From a virus, in the IMG/VR virus record IMGVR_UViG_3300007619_000003, positions 1-53,241 of that record: DNA of 53,241 bases. One strand, 5' to 3'. A program made the translations under genes and the position numbers. The notes under the pieces are model-generated. The model did no database searches, was not told where the DNA came from, and was given only the letters and a program-made list of their open reading frames with translations. Of this stretch, positions 6,012 through 37,728 are shown one piece after another. Position 1 is the first letter of the stretch; the number at the start of each line of letters is the position of its first letter.

Positions 6012-6235
6012 TCGCCGGTCCCCCTGTTGGCCGCCGCCCGGAGCCGTGATGCGTTCGCCGCGCTCGTCGCCATCGCTTCTGCCATCACTCGTCGCCCGCC
6101 TTCGATCTTGTCGACGTGCTCGACGACGCGAACGCCGCGGCAGTAGTGCTGAAGCCCGCCGCTGGGCATCGCCGGGCAGGGCGAAGTGTAGGTGCCCCAT
6201 GTCCCGCCGCAGACCGAACAACGCGGACGGCTCAC
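6008..6235 (-). CDS. Small Cys-rich protein, probable zinc ribbon
   Basis: The 75-aa frame starts at GTG 6235, forming GTGA with the stop of the SbcC-like gene. Residues 6-9 are Cys-Ser-Val-Cys, followed by Cys19 and His-Tyr-Cys near residues 29-31, a likely zinc site. The remainder is a basic helix ending in an Ala/Arg-rich tail. It is directly coupled to the recombination ATPase, so it may act with it; that is inference. Confidence 0.6.
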   Translation of the reverse strand: MSRPRCSVCGGTWGTYTSPCPAMPSGGLQHYCRGVRVVEHVDKIEGGRRVMAEAMATSAANASRLRAAANRGTGE

Positions 6236-8568
6236 AGGTCCACCCGCGAGTCCGCGAGCTCGGCGAGCTCTGCCGAGTGCGAGACGAAGAGAAGCTTGTC
6301 GGCGCCCATCATCGAGCAAGCCTGGCGGAGCATCGCGATCCAAGCCTGGCCGTTCTCCGGGTCGAGCGCGGCGCCGGCTTCGTCGCGGATGAGCGTCGGG
6401 CGGACGACGCCGAGCTCCCGGGACGCGAGCGTGGTCAGCGCGAGCGAAACGCCCTCGGCGATGATGGCCCGCTCGCCGCCGGAGAACGTCTCCGCCTTCG
6501 ACTCGCGGCCGGACTCGGAGTCGATGACGATGACGTCGAGCGTCTCGAGCGTCTTCTTACCGCGGGAGTCGAGCGACTGGCTCCGGACGTCGACCGTGAA
6601 CCGTGGACCGAAGCTCGAGTGCAGGAGCGAGTTCGTCATTGCGACGAGCTCGGGGAGCGCGGCGTCGATGACCGTGGCCTGCAGGCCGTCCTTGCCGAGA
6701 TCCGCGGCGAGCTTCTTCCAGTCCGCGAGTTCCACGCCGGCGACGGCCGCCTCCCGCTCGAGCTCGGCGAGCTTCTCCGCGCTCTTCTTCGCAGCTTCGA
6801 GTTCGCCCTGGGCGGCGCCGAGTTCCAGCGTCGCCGTCTCGTCCGCCTTCTCCGCGGCGCGGAGAGCCTCGTCGCTGGGGTCGATGCCGGTCACGGGCTC
6901 CGGGATGACGACGGCTCCGGCCGCGCGCTCGAGATCGTCGCGCGTCTCGGTCGCCGCTTCGAGCTGGGGGCCGAGTTCTTCGAGGCGGGCTTCCGCCGCG
7001 GCGAGCGGCTTCGCCAGGCGAGCGGTCTTCTCGAGCTTCGGGAGCCCGGCCTGTAGAGATGTCCGCTCGGCCGTCATCTCAGCGACGCGGTCGTCGAGCT
7101 CTTTCCGCTCCGCCGCGAGCCGGGTCTCCTCGGCGACGAGCTCGGCGAGCCGCGCTTCGCTCTTCCGCTTGTCCTCGGCGTAGCCGGCGAGAGCGTCGGC
7201 GCCGGCGGCGAATCGCTCCGTCTTCCGGAGCTCGTCCTCGAGCGCGCAGCGCTTCCGGTCGACGGCGTTCCGGTCCGCTTCGAGCCGAGCGACTTCATCC
7301 GGGGCGGCGACGGCTTCGTCGTCGCGGGAGAGCGTTGAGCCCGCGGTCTCCCGGGCGGCTTCGATCGACGAGTGCGAGTCCCGGATGGCGGCGAGCCCTT
7401 GCCGGAGCCCGGCGATCCGATCGCCGCTCGAGCGTTCCCGGGCCGCGTTGACTTCCTTCGTCAGCGTCCGGAAGTTGTCGGTCTCCGCGAGCACTCGCTC
7501 CTGGAGCCCGGGGAGTTCGTCGACGGCGGCGCGAACGGCGGCCTCGTTCGAGAGCGCCGCGTCGCAGCGCTGGACGCGGTCCTCGAGCTCCGCCCGTTGA
7601 CGTTCGACGTCGGCTCGTCTCGCGGAGATCCCCCGGAACTGCTGGAGAAGCCCGGTGGTCGAGAGTTCCGCGATGCGCGCGCTCGTCCTCTCGAGCTCGG
7701 TCTCCGCCGCCCGGATCTCGTCGGCCCGCCCGAGTATCGCCCGGTTGTTCGCGACCCGTTGGTCGAGCGCGGTGACGGCTTCGGTCGCCTTCCGTATTTG
7801 CTCCTGCAGCTCGTCGCGGCGCTGAAGCGCGGCGGTTCGCTCGGCGGCGAGCTTGTCCGCCTGGGCGGCGAGCGCCACCATCTGCGCGTGCTTCGCCCGC
7901 TCGTCCGCTACCCGCTCCGCCGCGACGTCCGCCGCCGCCATCTTCAGCTCGACCCGGGTCTCCGCGTCCGCGACGCTGACCGCCCGGTCGCGCTCGCTCT
8001 TGACCCGGTCCGCCGCGACGGTGAAGTCCCCGCTCGCGGAGCTCGCCCGCTTCCGCGCCTCGGCGGCGAGCGCCTCGAGCCGCTCGACGCCGAGCATTCG
8101 GAGCAGGAGCGTCTTCCGGTCCGCCGGGTCCGCGTCGATGAAGCCCTCGCTCTGCTGAGCCGCGATGGTCGTCACGAGCAGAACGTCGAACGGGGGGAAG
8201 TGCTCGGCGACGTACCGGTCGACCGCGGACCGCTTCGTCGACTCGACGAGCGGGCTCCCGTCGCCGTTGGTCAGGAGGGCGTCACCCTTCCGCCCGACGG
8301 AGTCGACGAGCTGCTTGATCCGGTAGCGCTGCCCGTCGTGTTCGAACGTCAACTCGACGAACGCGTCCCGCGCCGTCGCGAGATCGACGAGCGTCCCGCG
8401 GGTCGGCGTCGTCCGGAAGATCGCTCCGGGCATGGTCTCGAGCAGCGTCGACTTCCCGGAGCCGTTCGCCCCGCAGACGGCGACGAGCGGGCCGTGGAGT
8501 TCTTCGAGGTCAACGGCGAAGTCTTCGAACGGGCCGAGTCGATGGATGTGGTGCTTCAGATATCTCAT
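6232..8568 (-). CDS. SbcC/Rad50-like ATPase (T4 gp46 type)
   Basis: A 778-aa SMC-type ATPase, the partner of the Mre11-like nuclease encoded upstream; the pair resects DNA ends for recombination-dependent replication. Walker A Gly-Ala-Asn-Gly-Ser-Gly-Lys-Ser-Thr lies at 33-41. The ABC signature Phe-Ser-Gly-Gly-Glu is at 695-699, Walker B Asp-Glu at 729-730 with the D-loop Ala-Leu-Asp, and the switch Val-Ser-His-Ser near 763. Long heptad-rich coiled coils fill 180-620. I see no CxxC zinc hook at the apex, and the protein is shorter than E. coli SbcC (1048 aa). Start ATG 8568 has an AGAGG site upstream. Confidence 0.9.
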   Translation of the reverse strand: MRYLKHHIHRLGPFEDFAVDLEELHGPLVAVCGANGSGKSTLLETMPGAIFRTTPTRGTLVDLATARDAFVELTFEHDGQRYRIKQLVDSVGRKGDALLTNGDGSPLVESTKRSAVDRYVAEHFPPFDVLLVTTIAAQQSEGFIDADPADRKTLLLRMLGVERLEALAAEARKRASSASGDFTVAADRVKSERDRAVSVADAETRVELKMAAADVAAERVADERAKHAQMVALAAQADKLAAERTAALQRRDELQEQIRKATEAVTALDQRVANNRAILGRADEIRAAETELERTSARIAELSTTGLLQQFRGISARRADVERQRAELEDRVQRCDAALSNEAAVRAAVDELPGLQERVLAETDNFRTLTKEVNAARERSSGDRIAGLRQGLAAIRDSHSSIEAARETAGSTLSRDDEAVAAPDEVARLEADRNAVDRKRCALEDELRKTERFAAGADALAGYAEDKRKSEARLAELVAEETRLAAERKELDDRVAEMTAERTSLQAGLPKLEKTARLAKPLAAAEARLEELGPQLEAATETRDDLERAAGAVVIPEPVTGIDPSDEALRAAEKADETATLELGAAQGELEAAKKSAEKLAELEREAAVAGVELADWKKLAADLGKDGLQATVIDAALPELVAMTNSLLHSSFGPRFTVDVRSQSLDSRGKKTLETLDVIVIDSESGRESKAETFSGGERAIIAEGVSLALTTLASRELGVVRPTLIRDEAGAALDPENGQAWIAMLRQACSMMGADKLLFVSHSAELAELADSRVDL

Positions 8569-8645
8569 GAGGGGACCTTCCTCTTCTGGGGGGAGGGGGC
8601 GAGGGGGGCCGACGGTAGAGTGGCGACGGCGACGGGTCCAGTCAC
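8565..8645 (-). CDS. 26-aa micro-ORF linking two genes
   Basis: GTG 8645 overlaps the stop of the 19-aa micro-ORF (GTGA), and its TGA overlaps the ATG of the SbcC-like gene (ATGA). The product is Pro/Ala-rich with a Lys-Arg-Lys near the end. The most likely role is to keep ribosomes moving by termination-reinitiation from the nuclease gene to the ATPase gene, although the ribosome-binding site of the ATPase gene also lies within it. A stable product is not implied. Confidence 0.35.
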   Translation of the reverse strand: MTGPVAVATLPSAPLAPSPQKRKVPS

Positions 8646-8701
8646 CGGCGGCGGACCGTGATGACGCGTAGCGCGCCCGCGATCTTCTCGGCGTCGCTCA
8701 C
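8642..8701 (-). CDS. 19-aa micro-ORF after the Mre11-like gene
   Basis: Starts at GTG 8701 in a GTGA overlap with the stop of the SbcD-like gene and ends in a GTGA overlap with the next micro-ORF. It encodes a peptide ending in Val-Arg-Arg-Arg. Together with the 26-aa ORF it bridges the 130-nt gap between nuclease and ATPase genes with no untranslated base. Confidence 0.35.
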   Translation of the reverse strand: MSDAEKIAGALRVITVRRR

Positions 8702-9852
8702 GACGCCTCCAGGTCGTGGAGCTTCGCGAGAAGCGGGTCGCGTCGGCCAACGCAGTCGTCGTTCGTCGAGTCCCAGTAGGCGACCAGCTTGTCGGCCACG
8801 GACAGAGCCCGTGCGACTTCCGGAGCCCGCGCCCGGGTCTCGATGCGGAGACGGTCCTCGACCTTCACCGTAGCGCCCGCGCCCCGGAGCTGCTCGGCTC
8901 GAGCTTCCGCCGCCGCCCTCGCCGGCTCCCGCTCGCTCGCCGCGACGTCGTACCGGAGCCGGACCTCGGCGCCAGCTCCGATTTGCGCGAGCTGCTCGGC
9001 CGTCAGATCCGTCACGAGCTCGCCGTCCTTCCACTCGCCCGAGACGTGGAGCATGGGCGGCGCCGGCGTCGGAATGCGATCCCACTCGACGCAGTGATTC
9101 CCGTCGAACGTAGCGACCACGTACCCCTTGTCCTCCGTCTCACCGAAGTTGCACCGGCGGGGCGAGCCCGGATAGACGACGGGGACGCGCCAGTTGCCGG
9201 CGTCGATCGCCCACTCCTGGCCGAGGTGGATGTGGCCGAGCGCCACGAAGTCCGCTTCCGCGCAGGCCAGGTCGTCGAGCGAGAGTTCGAGTTCCTGGCC
9301 GACGAGAGGCGGCTGGCTCGTACTCGTTCTACTCCCCCGGACCATCGCGTGAGAGAGAAGAATCCGCGGCTCCTCGTCCCGGGCCATCCCGCCCCAGCCG
9401 GTCAGGATGGCGCGCAGAGCGGTCTTCGCGTCGTCTTCTCCATTCCCCGCGTGTCCGGGCGGGAGCGACGCGAGTAGGTGCGCCGTCCGCGGCCAGGGCA
9501 GGAGGCAGAAGCGGAACCCGCCGAGTCGGATGGTCGCCGGCGACGAAGCCGCCCAGATGTCGTGGCCCCCAGCGAGCCGGTTCAGGAGGTCGATGTCGCG
9601 CGGGTCGTCGTGGTTGCCGGCGACGACGGCCAGCGGCATCTCGTCCGTGACGGCGGTCATCCACTCGGCGACCGCGATGCGTTCCTCCGATGTGCTCCGC
9701 CGTTCGAACACGTCGCCGGCGTGAGCCATCGCGTCGCAGCCCCGGGCCGCCGCGTCGGCGGCGATCCAGAGCATGATCCGCTTGTAGTCCTCGAAGCGGC
9801 TCCGCCCGTCAGCATGGGTATCGGCCACGAGCGCTAGTTTTCGGATGGTCAC
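8698..9852 (-). CDS. SbcD/Mre11-like nuclease (T4 gp47 type)
   Basis: A 384-aa calcineurin-fold phosphoesterase, the catalytic half of the SbcCD/Mre11-Rad50 complex. Metal-binding motifs are visible in order: Asp11-Thr-His13, Gly-Asp-Val-Phe (46-49), Gly-Asn-His-Asp (79-82), Leu-Leu-Ser-His, and Gly-His-Ile-His. The C-terminal part is the capping/ATPase-binding region. The start is at ATG 9852, overlapping the upstream stop. It sits in one operon with the ATPase and a possible annealing protein, consistent with end resection followed by strand annealing during phage replication. Confidence 0.9.
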   Translation of the reverse strand: MTIRKLALVADTHADGRSRFEDYKRIMLWIAADAAARGCDAMAHAGDVFERRSTSEERIAVAEWMTAVTDEMPLAVVAGNHDDPRDIDLLNRLAGGHDIWAASSPATIRLGGFRFCLLPWPRTAHLLASLPPGHAGNGEDDAKTALRAILTGWGGMARDEEPRILLSHAMVRGSRTSTSQPPLVGQELELSLDDLACAEADFVALGHIHLGQEWAIDAGNWRVPVVYPGSPRRCNFGETEDKGYVVATFDGNHCVEWDRIPTPAPPMLHVSGEWKDGELVTDLTAEQLAQIGAGAEVRLRYDVAASEREPARAAAEARAEQLRGAGATVKVEDRLRIETRARAPEVARALSVADKLVAYWDSTNDDCVGRRDPLLAKLHDLEAS

Positions 9853-26794: not shown

Positions 26795-27112
26795 ATGCCG
26801 GGCGAGCCAGCAGGCGGGAGAACGCGGTCGGCGGAGGACGTCGAGGCCGACCGAGCGGAGCAGGCGGAGCTCGCCGCGCTCTGCGGCCAGCGTCTGAAGG
26901 CGGCCCGGAAGCACCGCGGTTGGACGCAGTACGACCTCGCGGAGAAGAGCGGCATCTTTCAGGGCCACATCTCCCACTTCGAGTGCGGCATCCGCGTCCC
27001 GCTCGTTCGGAACTTATTAAAGCTCGCCGATGCGCTGGGCCGCTCGACGGACTTTCTTCTCGGTCGCACGACCATCGAGCTCCCCGACCCACCGGCGAAG
27101 AAGTCGACCTGA
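26795..27112 (+). CDS. XRE-family transcription regulator
   Basis: A 105-aa protein; ATG 26795 chosen because the predicted transcript begins there (a GTG 9 nt earlier and TTG 26756 are alternatives). The helix-turn-helix at about 28-85 is clear: Gln-Arg-Leu-Lys-Ala-Ala-Arg-Lys, Trp-Thr-Gln-Tyr-Asp-Leu-Ala-Glu-Lys-Ser-Gly, Ile-Ser-His-Phe-Glu-Cys-Gly, Leu-Leu-Lys-Leu-Ala-Asp-Ala-Leu, Asp-Phe-Leu-Leu-Gly. It heads the modification operon and could time its expression. Its TGA overlaps the next ATG. Confidence 0.8.
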   Translation: MPGEPAGGRTRSAEDVEADRAEQAELAALCGQRLKAARKHRGWTQYDLAEKSGIFQGHISHFECGIRVPLVRNLLKLADALGRSTDFLLGRTTIELPDPPAKKST

Positions 27113-27759
27113 TGGCAGCGAAGAAGAAGCGCGCGGCAAAGAAGACCCGGGCCCGGCCGCAGGCCAAGGTGACGGGGAAGGTCGTCATGGCCCGGCTCGA
27201 CCGCGTCCGCCCGAACGACTGGAACCCGAACCGGATGACCGAGTTCCAGATGGAGTCGACCCGCGAGGGTATGCGGACCGGCGGCTGGCTCGCCGCGTAC
27301 GCGCTCCTGGTCTGGGGGAAGGACGAGAAGGGGAAGCGCCGCGACGTCATCATCGACGGCGAGCATCGCTGGCGGATCGCGAACGAGCTCGCGATGCCCG
27401 AAGGGCCGATGGTCTTTCTCGACGGGCTGACCGAGAGAGAAGCGAAGAAGCTGACCATCGCGCTCGACAACAAGCGGGGCGACTTCGACCGCGTCGCGCT
27501 CCGGGACCTGATCGGCGACATCGGCGTCGTCGACGGTCTCGGCTTCGAGCTCGGCTTCGACGAGGCGAGCTTCACGGCCCTGATGGACCCGGGGAACCCG
27601 CTCCCCCCGGGCGACTTCTCGTCCGTCGACATCAACGCGAAGACCACTTACTGCTGCCCGAAGTGCGGCTATGAGTGGAACGGCGCCCCTGCGGCGAAGA
27701 CCGCGAAGAAGACCGCGAAGAAGAAGACGAGCAGGCGAGCGGCATCGGCGGGAGCGTGA
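27112..27759 (+). CDS. ParB-domain protein with zinc ribbon
   Basis: A 215-aa protein (TGATG start overlap). Basic Lys-rich N-terminus (1-20), then a ParB/sulfiredoxin-type domain: Asp-Arg-Val-Arg-Pro-Asn-Asp-Trp-Asn-Pro-Asn (30-40), Ile-Ile-Asp-Gly-Glu-His-Arg (80-86) and Thr-Ile-Ala-Leu-Asp-Asn (115-120). A short Cys-Cys-Pro-Lys-Cys motif (181-185) and a second Lys-rich tail follow. In phages such domains are often next to DNA methyltransferases and may bind nucleotide, cut or recognise DNA. Its stop overlaps the methyltransferase GTG, so the two are co-translated. Confidence 0.75.
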   Translation: MAAKKKRAAKKTRARPQAKVTGKVVMARLDRVRPNDWNPNRMTEFQMESTREGMRTGGWLAAYALLVWGKDEKGKRRDVIIDGEHRWRIANELAMPEGPMVFLDGLTEREAKKLTIALDNKRGDFDRVALRDLIGDIGVVDGLGFELGFDEASFTALMDPGNPLPPGDFSSVDINAKTTYCCPKCGYEWNGAPAAKTAKKTAKKKTSRRAASAGA

Positions 27760-28892
27760 AGCCGCCGTTCCGGCTCCCGTCGATGGCCGAAGTCGCGGCG
27801 GCGCGCGGTACCGCCGGGCTGACCGTCGCCTCGACGTTCGCCGGCTGCGGCGGCTCCTGTCTCGGCTTCGAGATGGCCGGCTTCCGAACGGTCTGGGCGA
27901 ACGAGTTCGTCCCCGCGGCGCGCGAAGTCTACGCGGCGAACCACCCGGGCGTTCCGCTCGATGACCGCGACATCCGGAAGGTCCAGCCCGCCGACGTCCT
28001 GGGCGCCGTCGGGCTCGAGCGCGGCGAGCTCGACGTCCTGAACGGCTCCCCGCCCTGCGCGTCGTTCTCCATGAGCGGAAAGCGAGACGCCCACTGGGGG
28101 GAGGTCAAGAAGTATTCGGATAGGAAGCAGCGGACCGACGACCTGTTTTTCGAGTTCGTCCGTCTGCTCGACGGAATCCAGCCCCGGGCGTTCGTCGCGG
28201 AGAACGTAGCGGCGATCACGCAGGGGGTGGCGGTCGGATACTTCAAGGAGATCGTCCGCGCGCTCGAGGGCGCCGGCTACCGCGTCGCCTGCCGGATACT
28301 CGACGCTCAGTGGCTTGGGGTTCCTCAGACCCGGCGGCGAGCGATCATCCTCGGCGTCCGAAAGGATCTCGACCGAGAGCCCGACTTCCCGAAGCCACTC
28401 GGCTATCGGTACTCACTCCGCGACGTTCTCCCCGACCTGAAGCGCCGCGCCGCGATGGTCGGTCCCGGGCTCGTCCGCGACGGCTCCATCGTCGGGACGG
28501 CCATCGAGAAAGAGTGGCGGAAGCTTACCCCGTACCGGGGTAAGCTCCGAGAGTGGGCGCGGCTCCACCCGGGGCAGAAGTCGAGCAAGTACCTGAACCT
28601 GATCCGCGCGAGCCCGGACGAGCCCTCGCCGTGCATCACCGCCGCCGGCGGCGGGCGGGGCGTCGCGTCGGTCACGCACCCGTACGAGCCGCGGAAGTTT
28701 TCGATCGACGAGCTCCGCCGGGTCTGCGGCTTCCCCGCCGATTTCGTTCTGACGGGTACGTATCAGCAGCAGTGGGAGCGACTCGGCCGCGCAGTCCCGC
28801 CGCCGATGATGCGCGCCGTCGCGGCCGCGCTCCGGGACGGGCTCTTCACCGAGCTCGACCGGACGCGGCGGAAGTTCCGGGAGGCGAGCTGA
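27756..28892 (+). CDS. C5 cytosine DNA methyltransferase, motif X Asn replaced by Arg
   Basis: A 378-aa Dcm-type enzyme from GTG 27756. All catalytic motifs are intact: I Phe-Ala-Gly-Cys-Gly-Gly (28-33), IV Gly-Ser-Pro-Pro-Cys (catalytic Cys101), VI Glu-Asn-Val (149-151), VIII Gln-Thr-Arg-Arg-Arg (191-195), target-recognition region about 240-310. Motif X, normally Gly-Asn-(Ala/Ser)-Val-Pro-Pro, reads Leu-Gly-Arg345-Ala-Val-Pro-Pro. In engineered M.MpeI, Lys or Arg at the motif X Asn permits use of carboxy-SAM. With a CmoA-like gene overlapping by one base, I infer that this enzyme transfers a carboxymethyl group to cytosine C5. Ordinary methylation is the alternative. Confidence 0.9.
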   Translation: MKPPFRLPSMAEVAAARGTAGLTVASTFAGCGGSCLGFEMAGFRTVWANEFVPAAREVYAANHPGVPLDDRDIRKVQPADVLGAVGLERGELDVLNGSPPCASFSMSGKRDAHWGEVKKYSDRKQRTDDLFFEFVRLLDGIQPRAFVAENVAAITQGVAVGYFKEIVRALEGAGYRVACRILDAQWLGVPQTRRRAIILGVRKDLDREPDFPKPLGYRYSLRDVLPDLKRRAAMVGPGLVRDGSIVGTAIEKEWRKLTPYRGKLREWARLHPGQKSSKYLNLIRASPDEPSPCITAAGGGRGVASVTHPYEPRKFSIDELRRVCGFPADFVLTGTYQQQWERLGRAVPPPMMRAVAAALRDGLFTELDRTRRKFREAS

Positions 28893-29601: not shown

Positions 29602-30201
29602 GTGGCGGGTCGACCGAAGCGGCGCTCGAAGAAGAAGCTCGAGGAGTCTGCGCGCGAGAAGCGGGCGCGGGAGACGCTCCAGGCGGAGCGGCTCGAGCAG
29701 GAGCAGATGATCCTGACGACGATGAGCCAGGGGCGCTGGGTCCCGGGGGTTACGCCCCTCCAGCTAGCGAAGCAGTGGGGCGTGACGCAGAACGTCGTCG
29801 TTCAGCTCTCGCGGAAAGCGAGCGCGACGCTCCGGTCGCTCTCGAAGATGACGCCCGAGTTCCGGGAAGAAGTCCTCGCCGAGTGTCTCCAGACCTTCCG
29901 GACGATCCGGGCGTTCGCCCTCTCGAAGGCCTCGGTCCCCGACGAGCGGAACCCGGCGCCGCTACTCGACGTCGCCCTGCGGGCCACGCGCGCCCTCGGG
30001 CAGTACACTGGGGTGGAGCCCGATGGCCGACGCGACGACGACGACAAGACGCACGACCCGTTCAGCGGCTGGAGCCGGCAAGAAATCGAAGACTACGTCT
30101 CGGGCCGGAAAGCCCGACGCGCGCTCCCGGAAGGCGTCGGCGAGTTCGAAACGATCGGCGAAGAAGTCGACGACGAGAGCGGCGAAGCCGCCGTCCACTG
30201 A
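29602..30201 (+). CDS. Terminase small subunit (probable)
   Basis: A 199-aa protein from GTG 29602. It has a basic N-terminus, then a helix-turn-helix (about 52-75: Leu-Gln-Leu-Ala-Lys-Gln-Trp-Gly-Val-Thr-Gln-Asn-Val-Val-Val-Gln-Leu) and a helical oligomerisation region ending in an acidic tail. It is followed at once by the large terminase, so it should bind the packaging site. The last 179 nt also encode the N-terminus of the large subunit in another frame. Confidence 0.7.
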   Translation: MAGRPKRRSKKKLEESAREKRARETLQAERLEQEQMILTTMSQGRWVPGVTPLQLAKQWGVTQNVVVQLSRKASATLRSLSKMTPEFREEVLAECLQTFRTIRAFALSKASVPDERNPAPLLDVALRATRALGQYTGVEPDGRRDDDDKTHDPFSGWSRQEIEDYVSGRKARRALPEGVGEFETIGEEVDDESGEAAVH

Positions 30202-31714
30202 CCTCCGGAGCCTGAGCGACGACGAGCTCCGGACGCGCGCGCTCGCGCGCCGGCGGCTCGACGAGATGGACGCCGAGTTCGATCTCCGGACGTTCATGAG
30301 CCTGTACTCCCCACGGCTCGGGGACCCGTACCATCTCGCCGAGCTCTGCGAAGCGCTCGACGAGTCGATGAAGCGCCCGGTCATCATCCTCGCGGAAGCG
30401 CCGCCCCGTCACTGGAAGACGGTGACGATTCTCCACCACATCGCGCGACGGCTGAAGTACCGCCCGACCGAGCAAAACGCGTACGGGACTTACTCCGGCG
30501 GGCTCGCGTTCCGGAAGTCCCGGCTCTGCCGCGAGTACGCGGGACGCGCCGGCGTCTTCGCTCGACCGGCGGAGCTCCACCTCGGCCCGGGCGAGAAGGC
30601 GAAGGACCCGGCGGCGACGGTCAGCTTCTGGCAGACGCCGCAGGGCGGCGGGCTCGTCGCCGGCGGCCGCCACGGCGCGTTCGTCGGCGAGGGCTTCGGG
30701 TTCATCTACATCGACGACCCGTTCAAAGACCGGCCGGAAGCGGAGTCGGAGAAGATTCAGGACGCGGTTTACGAGGGGATGTTCCAGGGGACGATGTTCA
30801 CCCGTCTCGAGCCGGGCGGTTCGATCTGCATCTCCCACCAGGCGTGGAACGACCGCGACCTGAACGCCCGGCTCCGCGAGTGGGCGGTCGAAGAAGGGCT
30901 CGGCGCCGAGGTCATCGACATCCGACTGCCCGCCGTCTCTCGCGCGACGTACGACCGGCGCGGGCGCCTGACCGGCGGCGTCCCGCTCCACCCGGGGCGC
31001 TACAACATCCGCGCGCTCCGGCGGATCCAGCAGGCGATCAGCGACTACAACTTCGAGAGCCAGTACCAGCAGAAGCGGGTCCCGCGCGGTAAGCGGATCT
31101 TCGTCGAGCCGCAGATGTACGACGAGCCGAACTTCGACGGCGCGATCGTCCTCGTCTCCTGCGACCCGGGCATCGTCAAAGACAAGAAGAAGGACCCGAG
31201 CGGGTTCGTCGTTACGTCGGGCTATCTCGACCGCGGCGGCTCGGTCTGCATGGACGTCCTGTTCGCCGAGGAGCGCCATGAGGAGATCCCCGAGACGGTC
31301 GACGCGCTCGAAGAACTCCACGAGGACTTCTTCCACTCGCCGATCCTGCTCGAGGAAGTCTCGGCGTTCAAAGCGGTCAGCCAGATCGCGCGACGGCTCG
31401 ACCAGGAGCGGACGAAGCGGGGCGAGCAGCCCGCGAACCTTCCCATCGAGAGCTGGCTCCCGGAGGGTTCGAAGTTCGTCCGCGCGCTCCCCTGCGCCGG
31501 CGGCGTCCGCTTCGGTCGCGTCCGGGTCCCGAAGACCGGCTTTTGGGTCCCGGCTTTCCGGAAGCAGATGCGGCGGTTTACCGGCCGAGAGGGCGGAAAG
31601 GACAACATGATCGACGCCCTGACCCAGGCGTACGACTGGTACGACAAGAATCTCGCGAGCGCCGGGCTCCGCTCCCGGACCGGCGGAGAGCGGGAGATGG
31701 CCTCAGGATTCTGA
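30023..31714 (+). CDS. Terminase large subunit
   Basis: Packaging ATPase-nuclease, 563 aa from ATG 30023, which has a GGTGGAG site; ATG 30266 downstream of the small-subunit stop is an alternative. The Walker A loop reads Ala-Pro-Pro-Arg-His-Trp131-Lys-Thr, with Trp where Gly is usual. Walker B is Phe-Ile-Tyr-Ile-Asp-Asp-Pro-Phe (about 227-234). The RNase H-like nuclease has Ser-Cys-Asp-Pro-Gly, Leu-Leu-Glu-Glu-Val and Asp-Asn-Met-Ile-Asp-Ala-Leu. The first 60 residues are Ser/Thr/Lys/Arg-rich and may be non-functional if the later start is used. Confidence 0.9.
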   Translation: MADATTTTRRTTRSAAGAGKKSKTTSRAGKPDARSRKASASSKRSAKKSTTRAAKPPSTDLRSLSDDELRTRALARRRLDEMDAEFDLRTFMSLYSPRLGDPYHLAELCEALDESMKRPVIILAEAPPRHWKTVTILHHIARRLKYRPTEQNAYGTYSGGLAFRKSRLCREYAGRAGVFARPAELHLGPGEKAKDPAATVSFWQTPQGGGLVAGGRHGAFVGEGFGFIYIDDPFKDRPEAESEKIQDAVYEGMFQGTMFTRLEPGGSICISHQAWNDRDLNARLREWAVEEGLGAEVIDIRLPAVSRATYDRRGRLTGGVPLHPGRYNIRALRRIQQAISDYNFESQYQQKRVPRGKRIFVEPQMYDEPNFDGAIVLVSCDPGIVKDKKKDPSGFVVTSGYLDRGGSVCMDVLFAEERHEEIPETVDALEELHEDFFHSPILLEEVSAFKAVSQIARRLDQERTKRGEQPANLPIESWLPEGSKFVRALPCAGGVRFGRVRVPKTGFWVPAFRKQMRRFTGREGGKDNMIDALTQAYDWYDKNLASAGLRSRTGGEREMASGF

Positions 31715-34524: not shown

Positions 34525-37500
34525 GTGGCGAAGCGGCGAAGACGACGCAAGCGGTATAACGACGGCCAGCAGCTGAGGGGCGTCGAGGCGGTGCAGCCGG
34601 CGCACGGCATTCTCAGGGGCCGCTACTTCCCGAACGTCCCGCGGGAAGAGGCGTACCGCCCGCACTTCGGCCGGTCGCTCACTCTCCAGACGATCGACGC
34701 GGCCATCCGGTCGCTCGAGGTGGGACTGATGCGCCGGTTCACCGACATCGCGACGGAGTCGCTACGGCTCGACCTCCACGCGTCGGCTCTTTGGCAGAAA
34801 CGTCTCAACCGGCTCGGCGCGCTCGACTGGCGCGTGAAGCCGGCGAGCGGCGATGGGGTCGAAAAGCAGCGGGCAGAGGACTACGCAGGCTTTGTGCGCC
34901 AACAGCTCGAGCAGATGCCGAGCTTCCGTCAGGTGTTACTCGACGCCAACCAGGCGACGTTTCACGGGCGCTCCGCCGGCGAGCTCGAGTGGGAGCTCGT
35001 CCGATCCCGCTGGCGCGTCTGCGACGTCCACTGGATTCACGCACGACGTCTCTCGTTCGGGCCGAACCGCGACCTGCGCATTATCGACCTCAACCGCGAG
35101 GTCGCCGACTTTCGGGACGAGGGCTTCGCCCTCGAGACGATCCCGTACAAGTTCCTACCGTACAAGCCGCGCATCTTCGGCGAGTACCCCGAGCGCGAAG
35201 GGCTCGCTCTCCGCTCGACGTTCTGGTCGTTCTTCGGTCGGGTCATGGAGCGGGAGCGGCTCCATCTCATCGAGATCTTCGGCAAGCCCTGGCGCGTCGG
35301 GATCGTCAAGGACTCGGCGAAGAACGGCACGACCATCAACCAGGACCAGATCGACGACGCGTTCGATTCGCTCAACCGACTCGGGGGACACTCTACCGCC
35401 GTCCTGCCCCTCGACATGGATCTGCTGATCGCTCAGCCGCAGCGGGGCGCGGGAGAGATTCACGAGCAGGCGATCGACCATGTCGAGAAAGCTCAGTCGA
35501 AGCTCTTCCTCGGCGGTACCGCGACGACGGACGCCGTCTCGACCGGACTCGGATCGACCATCGGGGACGCGCACACGAACGAAGAAGATCTCATCATCGC
35601 GAGCGACGCCTGGCGGCTCTCCGAGGTCATCGAGCGGTTCCTGACGGACGCGATCATCGTCGTCAACTTCGGCCCGGAAGCTATCACTCACGCTCCCGAG
35701 TTCGAGGTCGTTACCGAGCCGCCACTCGACCGCGCCGCGGAAGCCGAGCTGATCGACAAGACGCTCTCGGTCGGAGTGGATATCGCGCTTTCCGAAGCGC
35801 GCGAGCGGCTCGGCGTACGCGAGATCGACCCGGACGAGCCGTATCTCCGGAAGGCACCGCGCAACCTGAATGGCCAGGTCCCCGCCTACCTACCCCAAGC
35901 CGAGGTGATCTACCCAAGCGGGCTCCCGGACGCCGGTAGGATCCGAGACGTCCCGGAAGTCCCGGGCGCGTTCCCGATCGGCGAGCGCCCGCTCCCGCCT
36001 GAAGACCCGCTCGCTAGCGGCTTCGGCGATGGCCCCCCCCGGCTACCCCCGGCGCCGGACAACCCGGCCCTACCACCCGTCGGAGAGACGGTAACCGCCA
36101 GCGAGGACGAGCTCGGCGACGCGGACATCGAAGCGCTCGCCGCGCAGATGACGGAGCACCGCGTTCAGAAGTGCGCTCACGGCCACAAGAACCGCTGCTG
36201 GAAGTGCGGCGTCGAGCGGGTCCGCGGTCTCGAGCTCGACGACGACGGGACGCCGCTGACCGACGCCGACGGCGAGCACGTCTGGCAGGTAGCCTGGCGA
36301 CCTATCAAGAAAGTGGCGAGCGCGCGCCGACTCGCGTCGACCGCGCCCGGCTCCGATGGAGGGCTACACGCGCACCGGCTCGACCGGGCGGAAGAGAGTA
36401 CGGCTCTCGACGGGCCGCACGCGCACGCGTACCGGCTCCCCGGGGGGCAGGTCGTTTACACGGAGATCGGCGGAGCGCATGAACATGAGATCGACCGGCA
36501 CGGCGACTTCGTCTGGGGCGGCCGGCACGCCCACTGGCTGACGCTCCCGAGCGGGGACCGGCTCCGGACGGAAGTCGACGGGGACCACTCCCACGACCTC
36601 CTGGTCGACGAGACCGCCCCTGGTGGCATGCACTGCCATGCGCTCGTTCTCCCCGACGGCGCGACGGTCGAGAGTCTACGCGTCCGGGATGCGGTCGACG
36701 ATGGACTCGGGCTCCGGGCGACGGCGACGGCGGTCGAGCGCTACGGCGGGACGGTCTGTCTCGCGGAGCAGCCCTCGACCGTCTTCGGCTCCCCTGATGA
36801 CCTGATGAAGCGCGGCGTCCCGGACGTCGCGAAGGCGATGGGCTCGTTCGCGGCGCGCATCGCGAACGCCGTCGACGGGAAGAAGACGCCCCGGGCGATC
36901 CGTTCGGCGCTCGCCGGTATCCGGAACCCGGAGCGGGGCGCGGTCCGCGAAGCGCTCCGCCGCGAGCTTCTAACCGGGCTGATGCTCGGCGCGCTCGACT
37001 CCGCGTTCGAGGGGGACGAAGAAGTCGAGATCGAAGTCGAGACGTTTAGCGCGCTTCAGGCGGAGGTCCGGCGGCTCCTGACGTCGCGGAAGCTACTCGT
37101 CGATACCGATCCGAAGTTCGTCGAGCACCCGATGGCGGAGGCGATTCGCGTCTTCGAGAGCCGCGAGGTCGTCACGCCGGAGGTCTTTCGGGAGCTGAAC
37201 TCCGTCGCTCGCCAGCGGGCGTTTACCATCGCCGGTCTCGCCGACGAAGAGCTGCTCGCCACCGCCCGGGCGGAGCTGAGCCGCCGTATCAAGGAGGGCG
37301 CTGACCTCGCGAACTTCCGGGATTTCGTCGCGGAGCGGCTCGAGGGCGCGGGCTGGACGCCGACGAACGCGTCGCACGTCGAGACGATCTTCCGGAACAA
37401 CGTCCAGGCAGCCTACTCGGGCGGGCGGTGGCGTCAGATGAGCCAGCCCGACGTCGCCGACGCGCGCCCGTACCTCCAGGTGCTCACGCCCAACGACGGC

Positions 37501-37728
37501 CCGCCCCGCCAGCGCCCGAACCATCAGGCGACTCACGGGAAGATCTTCCGCGTCGATGACCCCGCTTTTCCCGCCGCTCTCCCGCCCTGGGACCACAACT
37601 GTCGGTGCCGTATCCGCTCGCTTTCGAAGCGACAACTCGCAGGGCGACGAGCGACGAACGGGTCGTGGCTCTCGTCTCAGGGGCTACCCGCTCCGGGCTT
37701 CGGAGGGGGCGCGGCGGGCTTCGCTTGA
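34525..37728 (+). CDS. Portal (Mu gp29-like) fused to F-like head morphogenesis protein, with His-rich insert
   Basis: A 1067-aa fusion. Residues 1-460 match the DUF935/Mu gp29 portal family (Ile-Phe-Gly-Lys-Pro-Trp-Arg-Val-Gly, Lys-Leu-Phe-Leu-Gly-Gly). Residues about 460-760 form a Pro-rich linker, a Cys-His motif (Cys-Ala-His-Gly-His, Cys-Trp-Lys-Cys-Gly, about 550) and at about 613-710 five His-x-His units (His-Ala-His, His-Ala-His, His-Glu-His, His-Ser-His, His-Cys-His) spaced some 20 residues apart. Residues 770-1060 match Mu gpF/SPP1 gp7, ending in Pro-Pro-Trp-Asp-His-Asn-Cys-Arg-Cys. In Mu these are two genes. Confidence 0.85.
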   Translation: MAKRRRRRKRYNDGQQLRGVEAVQPAHGILRGRYFPNVPREEAYRPHFGRSLTLQTIDAAIRSLEVGLMRRFTDIATESLRLDLHASALWQKRLNRLGALDWRVKPASGDGVEKQRAEDYAGFVRQQLEQMPSFRQVLLDANQATFHGRSAGELEWELVRSRWRVCDVHWIHARRLSFGPNRDLRIIDLNREVADFRDEGFALETIPYKFLPYKPRIFGEYPEREGLALRSTFWSFFGRVMERERLHLIEIFGKPWRVGIVKDSAKNGTTINQDQIDDAFDSLNRLGGHSTAVLPLDMDLLIAQPQRGAGEIHEQAIDHVEKAQSKLFLGGTATTDAVSTGLGSTIGDAHTNEEDLIIASDAWRLSEVIERFLTDAIIVVNFGPEAITHAPEFEVVTEPPLDRAAEAELIDKTLSVGVDIALSEARERLGVREIDPDEPYLRKAPRNLNGQVPAYLPQAEVIYPSGLPDAGRIRDVPEVPGAFPIGERPLPPEDPLASGFGDGPPRLPPAPDNPALPPVGETVTASEDELGDADIEALAAQMTEHRVQKCAHGHKNRCWKCGVERVRGLELDDDGTPLTDADGEHVWQVAWRPIKKVASARRLASTAPGSDGGLHAHRLDRAEESTALDGPHAHAYRLPGGQVVYTEIGGAHEHEIDRHGDFVWGGRHAHWLTLPSGDRLRTEVDGDHSHDLLVDETAPGGMHCHALVLPDGATVESLRVRDAVDDGLGLRATATAVERYGGTVCLAEQPSTVFGSPDDLMKRGVPDVAKAMGSFAARIANAVDGKKTPRAIRSALAGIRNPERGAVREALRRELLTGLMLGALDSAFEGDEEVEIEVETFSALQAEVRRLLTSRKLLVDTDPKFVEHPMAEAIRVFESREVVTPEVFRELNSVARQRAFTIAGLADEELLATARAELSRRIKEGADLANFRDFVAERLEGAGWTPTNASHVETIFRNNVQAAYSGGRWRQMSQPDVADARPYLQVLTPNDGPPRQRPNHQATHGKIFRVDDPAFPAALPPWDHNCRCRIRSLSKRQLAGRRATNGSWLSSQGLPAPGFGGGAAGFA

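Follow-up and report, generated by a model that had tools for sequence, protein, structure and literature searches.

We analyzed a 53,241-base virus record from IMG/VR (referred to here as the window), with genes for a terminase, a Mu-type portal, a tail sheath, and a tape measure. A ParB-fold gene, a DNA cytosine C5-methyltransferase gene of predicted CmoX type, and a predicted carboxy-SAM synthase gene (CmoA) follow one another in the window (Table 1), and by way of context, the terminase large subunit gene indicates that the module lies in a tailed-phage packaging region. Elsewhere in the window, the first half of a 1067-aa frame (positions 34525-37728) matched a Mu-type portal protein, and a region near its end matched a Mu F-type head protein; judging from these matches, the frame is a natural portal-head morphogenesis fusion. 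On the minus strand, adjacent genes for an AAA/SMC-type ATPase and a calcineurin-like phosphoesterase (positions 6232-9828) resembled the SbcC/SbcD (gp46/gp47) nuclease pair.

Table 1. Positions of the features discussed in the text and the evidence for each
Feature	Positions	Strand	Evidence
ParB-fold protein, 215 aa, with C-terminal CPKCGYEW two-cysteine knuckle	27112..27759	+	PHROG ParB-like matches, AlphaFold model, gene order
CmoX-type DNA cytosine C5-carboxymethyltransferase (predicted), 378 aa from GTG 27756	27756..28892	+	PF00145, 8YF3 sequence and fold match, alignments
Cys101 codon, catalytic nucleophile in SPPC (SpCmoX Cys98, M.HhaI Cys81)	28056..28058	+	Alignment, invariant
Glu149 codon, motif VI ENV	28200..28202	+	Alignment, invariant
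Motif X, Leu-Gly-Arg-Ala-Val-Pro-Pro	28782..28802	+	Sequence, alignments, residue/CmoA co-occurrence
Phage-type CmoA, predicted carboxy-SAM synthase, 234 aa	28892..29596	+	1IM8, 4GEK, PHROG 4752, conserved ligand residues
Terminase large subunit	30023..31714	+	phrog_38 (E 3.9e-44)

The methyltransferase matched PF00145 (C-5 cytosine methylase; 185.7 bits). Translation from its GTG start, which overlaps the upstream ParB stop codon, yields an N-terminus (KPPFRLPSMAEV) that agrees with the family consensus. Motif X is encoded by CTC GGC CGC GCA GTC CCG CCG, and its CGC codon (positions 28788-28790) specifies Arg345 when counted from this start; with the alternative longer in-frame start (GTG 27675), the same Arg would be residue 372. 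An earlier reading made from the letters alone (the sequence-only reading) had claimed that Arg replaces the usual Asn of motif X while the other catalytic motifs are intact, and it had proposed a structure-based alignment as a check. The codon agrees with this claim, and in a five-way alignment Arg345 shared its column with M.HhaI Asn304 and SpCmoX Arg350 (SpCmoX being the CmoX of Synechococcus phage S-B43); the window protein has no rival Asn for that position. Cys101 (SPPC), Glu149 (ENV), and Gln191-Thr-Arg-Arg-Arg were likewise present and conserved in the alignments, as claimed. Arg was invariant at the motif X position in 36 diverse relatives.

The enzyme of S-B43 was reported in December 2025 to carboxymethylate C5 of cytosine in DNA with carboxy-SAM as the donor (PMC12783734). 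Wild-type SpCmoX accepts carboxy-SAM only and rejects SAM; Arg350, in place of the usual Asn, contacts the carboxymethyl group and holds its carboxylate, and further carboxy-SAM contacts are made by Phe25, Glu47, Phe48, and Asp69 (PMC12783734). The structure of SpCmoX with carboxy-SAM (8YF3) was both the best PDB match of the window methyltransferase by sequence (E 5.2e-63; next match, 2.5e-25) and the best fold match of its AlphaFold2 model (pLDDT 90.1, built from 36 sequences; Z 39.3 and rmsd 2.2 A over 315 residues; next match, Z 32.3). In alignments, SpCmoX Phe25, Glu47, Phe48, Asp69, and Cys98 corresponded to F28, E50, F51, D72, and C101, all of which are present in the window protein, and Arg345 corresponded to the carboxy-SAM-binding Arg350; since the list of fold matches gives no residue-level alignment, this equivalence rests on the sequence alignments.

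The sequence-only reading had connected the Arg to carboxy-SAM use, and the closeness of SpCmoX in sequence and fold, together with the contact made by Arg350, supports that connection. The idea was, however, already in print (PMC12783734), and the window protein is a further member of the CmoX family. In M.MpeI N374K, replacing the motif X Asn by a basic residue likewise leads to carboxy-SAM use (cited in PMC12783734), but that enzyme is a laboratory mutant with a CG target, whereas the change in the window is natural. The R345N swap proposed in the same reading may give a complicated result, because the R350N change left SpCmoX unable to use either cofactor, SAM or carboxy-SAM (PMC12783734).

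The ATG of the CmoA gene shares one base (28892) with the stop of the CmoX gene. Its product matched 1IM8 (E 1.4e-29 over residues 13-234), E. coli CmoA (4GEK; E 1.3e-27), and the profile PHROG 4752, and it belongs to the same family as E. coli CmoA and H. influenzae YecO (4GEK and 1IM8), with equivalents of the ligand residues Tyr39, Asp62, Gly64, Ser66, Phe137, Glu164, and Lys198 (E. coli CmoA numbering) retained. Lys198 was invariant in approximately 188 aligned relatives. E. coli CmoA differs in having Arg199, which forms a salt bridge with the carboxylate (PMC3663124); at this position the alignment places Ala in the window CmoA and Glu in SpCmoA, and the aligned relatives (approximately 188) included 119 with Glu, 47 with Arg, and 10 with Ala. 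Most phage CmoAs have Glu or Ala in place of this Arg, which is treated in the literature as a mark of carboxy-SAM enzymes. SpCmoA has been reported to be approximately 10 times faster than E. coli CmoA (PMC12783734). Because SpCmoA is highly active with Glu, phage CmoAs do not require Arg199, and we rejected the possibility that loss of Arg199 disqualifies the window CmoA as a carboxy-SAM synthase.

Relatives of the methyltransferase were taken from viral contigs and genome contigs, and the stretches around the CmoX loci were searched by profile HMM for CmoA, CmoY, and ParB; for CmoA, a single-sequence search of the viral contigs had given only two loci. The motif X column of 214 distinct viral relatives contained Arg (160), Asn (31), or Met (23). 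Within the fetched stretches of these 214 sequences, the HMM detected CmoA at 154 of the 160 Arg-type loci and at none of the 31 Asn-type or 23 Met-type loci. When only flank-complete loci were considered (i.e., at least 1.5 kb before and at least 2.5 kb after the methyltransferase), genome contigs included, CmoA lay nearby at 94 of 95 Arg-type loci and at 0 of 22 Asn-type, 0 of 13 Met-type, and 0 of 25 distant Asn-type loci. None of these counts consists of independent draws, because the sequences are kin to one another and the search patterns were partly derived from CmoX itself. The check that the sequence-only reading had suggested, namely, whether Arg goes with CmoA neighbors across genomes, thus gave a strongly positive answer.

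A search of whole contigs gave no credible CmoA match in six Asn-type and four Met-type contigs; an 18.9-bit match to the CmoA model in one Asn-type contig was weak and was judged to be a generic SAM-enzyme match. The eight Arg-type loci lacking CmoA were considered as evidence against the link, and none was firm. Six end within approximately 1.3 kb of CmoX, one (L071) is a 15-kb fragment with CmoX close to its end, and the sole flank-complete exception (L105) has a CmoA on another part of the contig (E 5e-64). Because the Arg/Asn/Met column tracks CmoA almost perfectly in the relatives, Arg345 is neither chance nor sequencing noise.

An IQ-TREE phylogeny of 79 relatives, calculated with the motif X column masked, required seven changes of the residue and seven of CmoA. 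Three independent pairs that differ in the residue lie on well-supported (starred) branches, and there are seven when all branches are counted; CmoA changed in step with the residue in all three supported pairs, which are too few for significance in a sign test. A FastTree phylogeny of 133 rows gave a similar picture. Because Asn-type groups are nested among Arg-type groups, the cofactor seems to have switched repeatedly, in a direction not readable from the tree. The Met-type enzymes formed one separate, fully supported clade. The members of this sister clade (L126, L136, L138, L156, and L235-L257; e.g., L244:5977-7029) carry Cys-Gly-Met-Ser-Val-Pro-Pro and often have ParB genes on both sides but never CmoA.

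The ParB-fold protein upstream of CmoX had no Pfam match. The best folds for its AlphaFold model were ParB/Noc N-domains (Z of approximately 14 over approximately 95 residues), and C182 and C185 were invariant in 31 homologues. For a set of 5,615 CmoX sequences, 1,660 ParB-domain neighbors have been reported, with no function given (PMC12783734). In our sample, in which relatives of the window are overrepresented, ParB stood beside nearly all Arg-, Asn-, and Met-type enzymes, from which we infer that this constant upstream partner is tied to the methyltransferase clade rather than to carboxy-SAM chemistry.

The window and S-B43 share a C5-methyltransferase fold with an SPPC nucleophile, Arg for the motif X Asn, the carboxy-SAM contacts, and a phage CmoA in the same gene group. 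They differ in sequence (approximately 41% identity over the aligned region) and in gene order: S-B43, in which the SpCmoX target is GC, has CmoA-CmoY-CmoX and no ParB in the stretch searched, whereas the window has ParB directly upstream and no CmoY. Among phage records, the closest protein was that of gene 123 of Streptomyces phage TurkishDelight (50% identity), which has a ParB-CmoX-CmoA module and Arg in motif X but differs from the window in that a CmoY of glutamine-amidotransferase type separates CmoX from CmoA. Moraxella phage Mcat8 (AKI27362.1; 44% identity) has ParB-CmoX-CmoA with no ligase gene between, as in the window, although its motif reads Gly-Arg-Met-Val and its genes are annotated as hypothetical proteins.

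Relatives were also found in bacterial genomes. Nonomuraea and Streptomyces chromosomes (L263, L264, L265, L266, and L287) contained ParB-CmoX-CmoY-CmoA modules; an integrase lies near L263, with no phage structural genes among the neighbors tested, and these actinobacterial modules may sit on integrative elements. Verrucomicrobia metagenome-assembled genomes (L267-L284) contained several ParB-CmoX-CmoA copies each, and L294 and L296 were broken. Because the copy examined (L268) adjoins phage polymerase and terminase genes, each of these genomes likely contains several related prophages. In Erwinia phage records (e.g., H46; MZ443774, 32939-34951), the CmoX-like match was in two pieces within approximately 2 kb of one annotated protein, and PHROG 116 (779 aa) matched the window CmoX only from position 197; taken together, these matches suggest ParB-CmoX fusions or insertions in jumbo phages.

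The phage almost certainly carries a CmoX/CmoA pair, and we consider it very probable that the pair forms a pathway yielding 5-carboxymethylcytosine, with Arg345 as the cofactor selector. On the basis of gene anatomy, homology, fold, conserved residues, and co-occurrence, the chemistry demonstrated for SpCmoX and SpCmoA would extend to the window pair, whose target site and role we infer. CmoA would convert host SAM and prephenate to carboxy-SAM. CmoX would flip out the target cytosine, Cys101 would attack C6, and the carboxymethyl group of carboxy-SAM would be moved to C5 in the phage DNA, after which Cys101 would be eliminated. Arg345, standing where ordinary C5-methyltransferases have Asn, would select the cofactor through its hold on the carboxylate. 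The mark would most likely protect the phage DNA from host restriction, because HhaI is blocked by the mark of the S-B43 enzyme (PMC12783734).

The fate of the carboxymethyl group divides the remaining readings. In S-B43, SpCmoA synthesizes the cofactor, SpCmoY can ligate the product to glycine, and the final base is a glycine amide (PMC12783734). In the window, there was no CmoY HMM match, nor was there an Asn-synthase match (PF00733) anywhere in the 53-kb record, which is linear and may be incomplete. The commonest gene order in our tally was the ligase-less ParB-CmoX-CmoA of the window (86 loci), followed by ParB-CmoY-CmoX-CmoA (34 loci) and ParB-CmoX-CmoY-CmoA (25 loci); at 70 of 154 distinct Arg-type loci with CmoA (approximately 45%), a CmoY-type gene was present no more than 6 kb away, in many cases between ParB and CmoA. 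No shared substitute enzyme was found in the ligase-less loci, where the recurrent neighbors were terminases, portals, nucleases, and structural/packaging families. Without a CmoY-type ligase, the carboxymethyl group may be left free or be acted on by some unrecognized enzyme, and free 5-carboxymethylcytosine is a reasonable candidate end product in these loci because they share no other enzyme nearby. A wider reading, which we put forward tentatively as something short of probable, joins three elements: the free, negatively charged base as the finished mark of ligase-less phages; the ParB-fold protein with its CPKCGYEW knuckle as a dedicated helper of the clade, whatever the cofactor; and repeated switching between SAM and carboxy-SAM by one residue, with gain or loss of CmoA.

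Alternatively, the first step could be the same and an amine could then be attached by an unrecognized or missing ligase in the way that SpCmoY attaches glycine, making the final base an amide. The glycine amide of S-B43, the frequency of CmoY-type genes near Arg-type loci, and the chance that the record is a fragment all speak for ligation; the lack of PF00733 and CmoY matches and of any other enzyme family common to the ligase-less loci speaks against it, and we regard an amide as a serious possibility that falls below an even chance.

A different alternative is an enzyme using both cofactors, which would leave a mixture of 5-methylcytosine and 5-carboxymethylcytosine set by the cellular ratio of SAM to carboxy-SAM. 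SAM is generally abundant in cells and carboxy-SAM must be made, and the window sequence is only moderately close to SpCmoX. Wild-type SpCmoX, however, took carboxy-SAM only (PMC12783734), and its cofactor-contact residues are all conserved in the window protein, which makes mixed use improbable. Least credible, to the point that we give it hardly any weight, is an ordinary SAM-dependent C5-methyltransferase with a neutral Arg and a CmoA serving tRNA modification only: the fold and catalytic motifs are indeed common to all C5-methyltransferases and bacterial CmoA is a tRNA-pathway enzyme, but Arg tracks CmoA locus by locus and is invariant in the diverse relatives, close Asn-type relatives lack CmoA over whole contigs, SAM is rejected by SpCmoX, which carries the same Arg (PMC12783734), and the CmoA gene directly overlaps that of the methyltransferase.

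Returning to the CmoA-CmoX pathway, what is new beyond the published system (PMC12783734) is the locus-by-locus coupling of residue and CmoA, with close Asn-type and Met-type relatives as controls; the repeated, matched switching of the two and the Met-type sister clade; the independence of the ParB partner from the cofactor; the loss of Arg199 in most phage CmoAs; and the occurrence in verrucomicrobial prophages and actinobacterial chromosomes. The CmoX system is thereby placed in further uncultivated phages, Verrucomicrobia prophages, and actinobacterial chromosomes. The matched switches (i.e., Arg with CmoA versus Asn without CmoA) offer natural pairs for studying cofactor change in methyltransferases, and the sequences by themselves confirm that one motif X residue can serve as a readable cofactor code, with Arg for carboxy-SAM and Asn for SAM.
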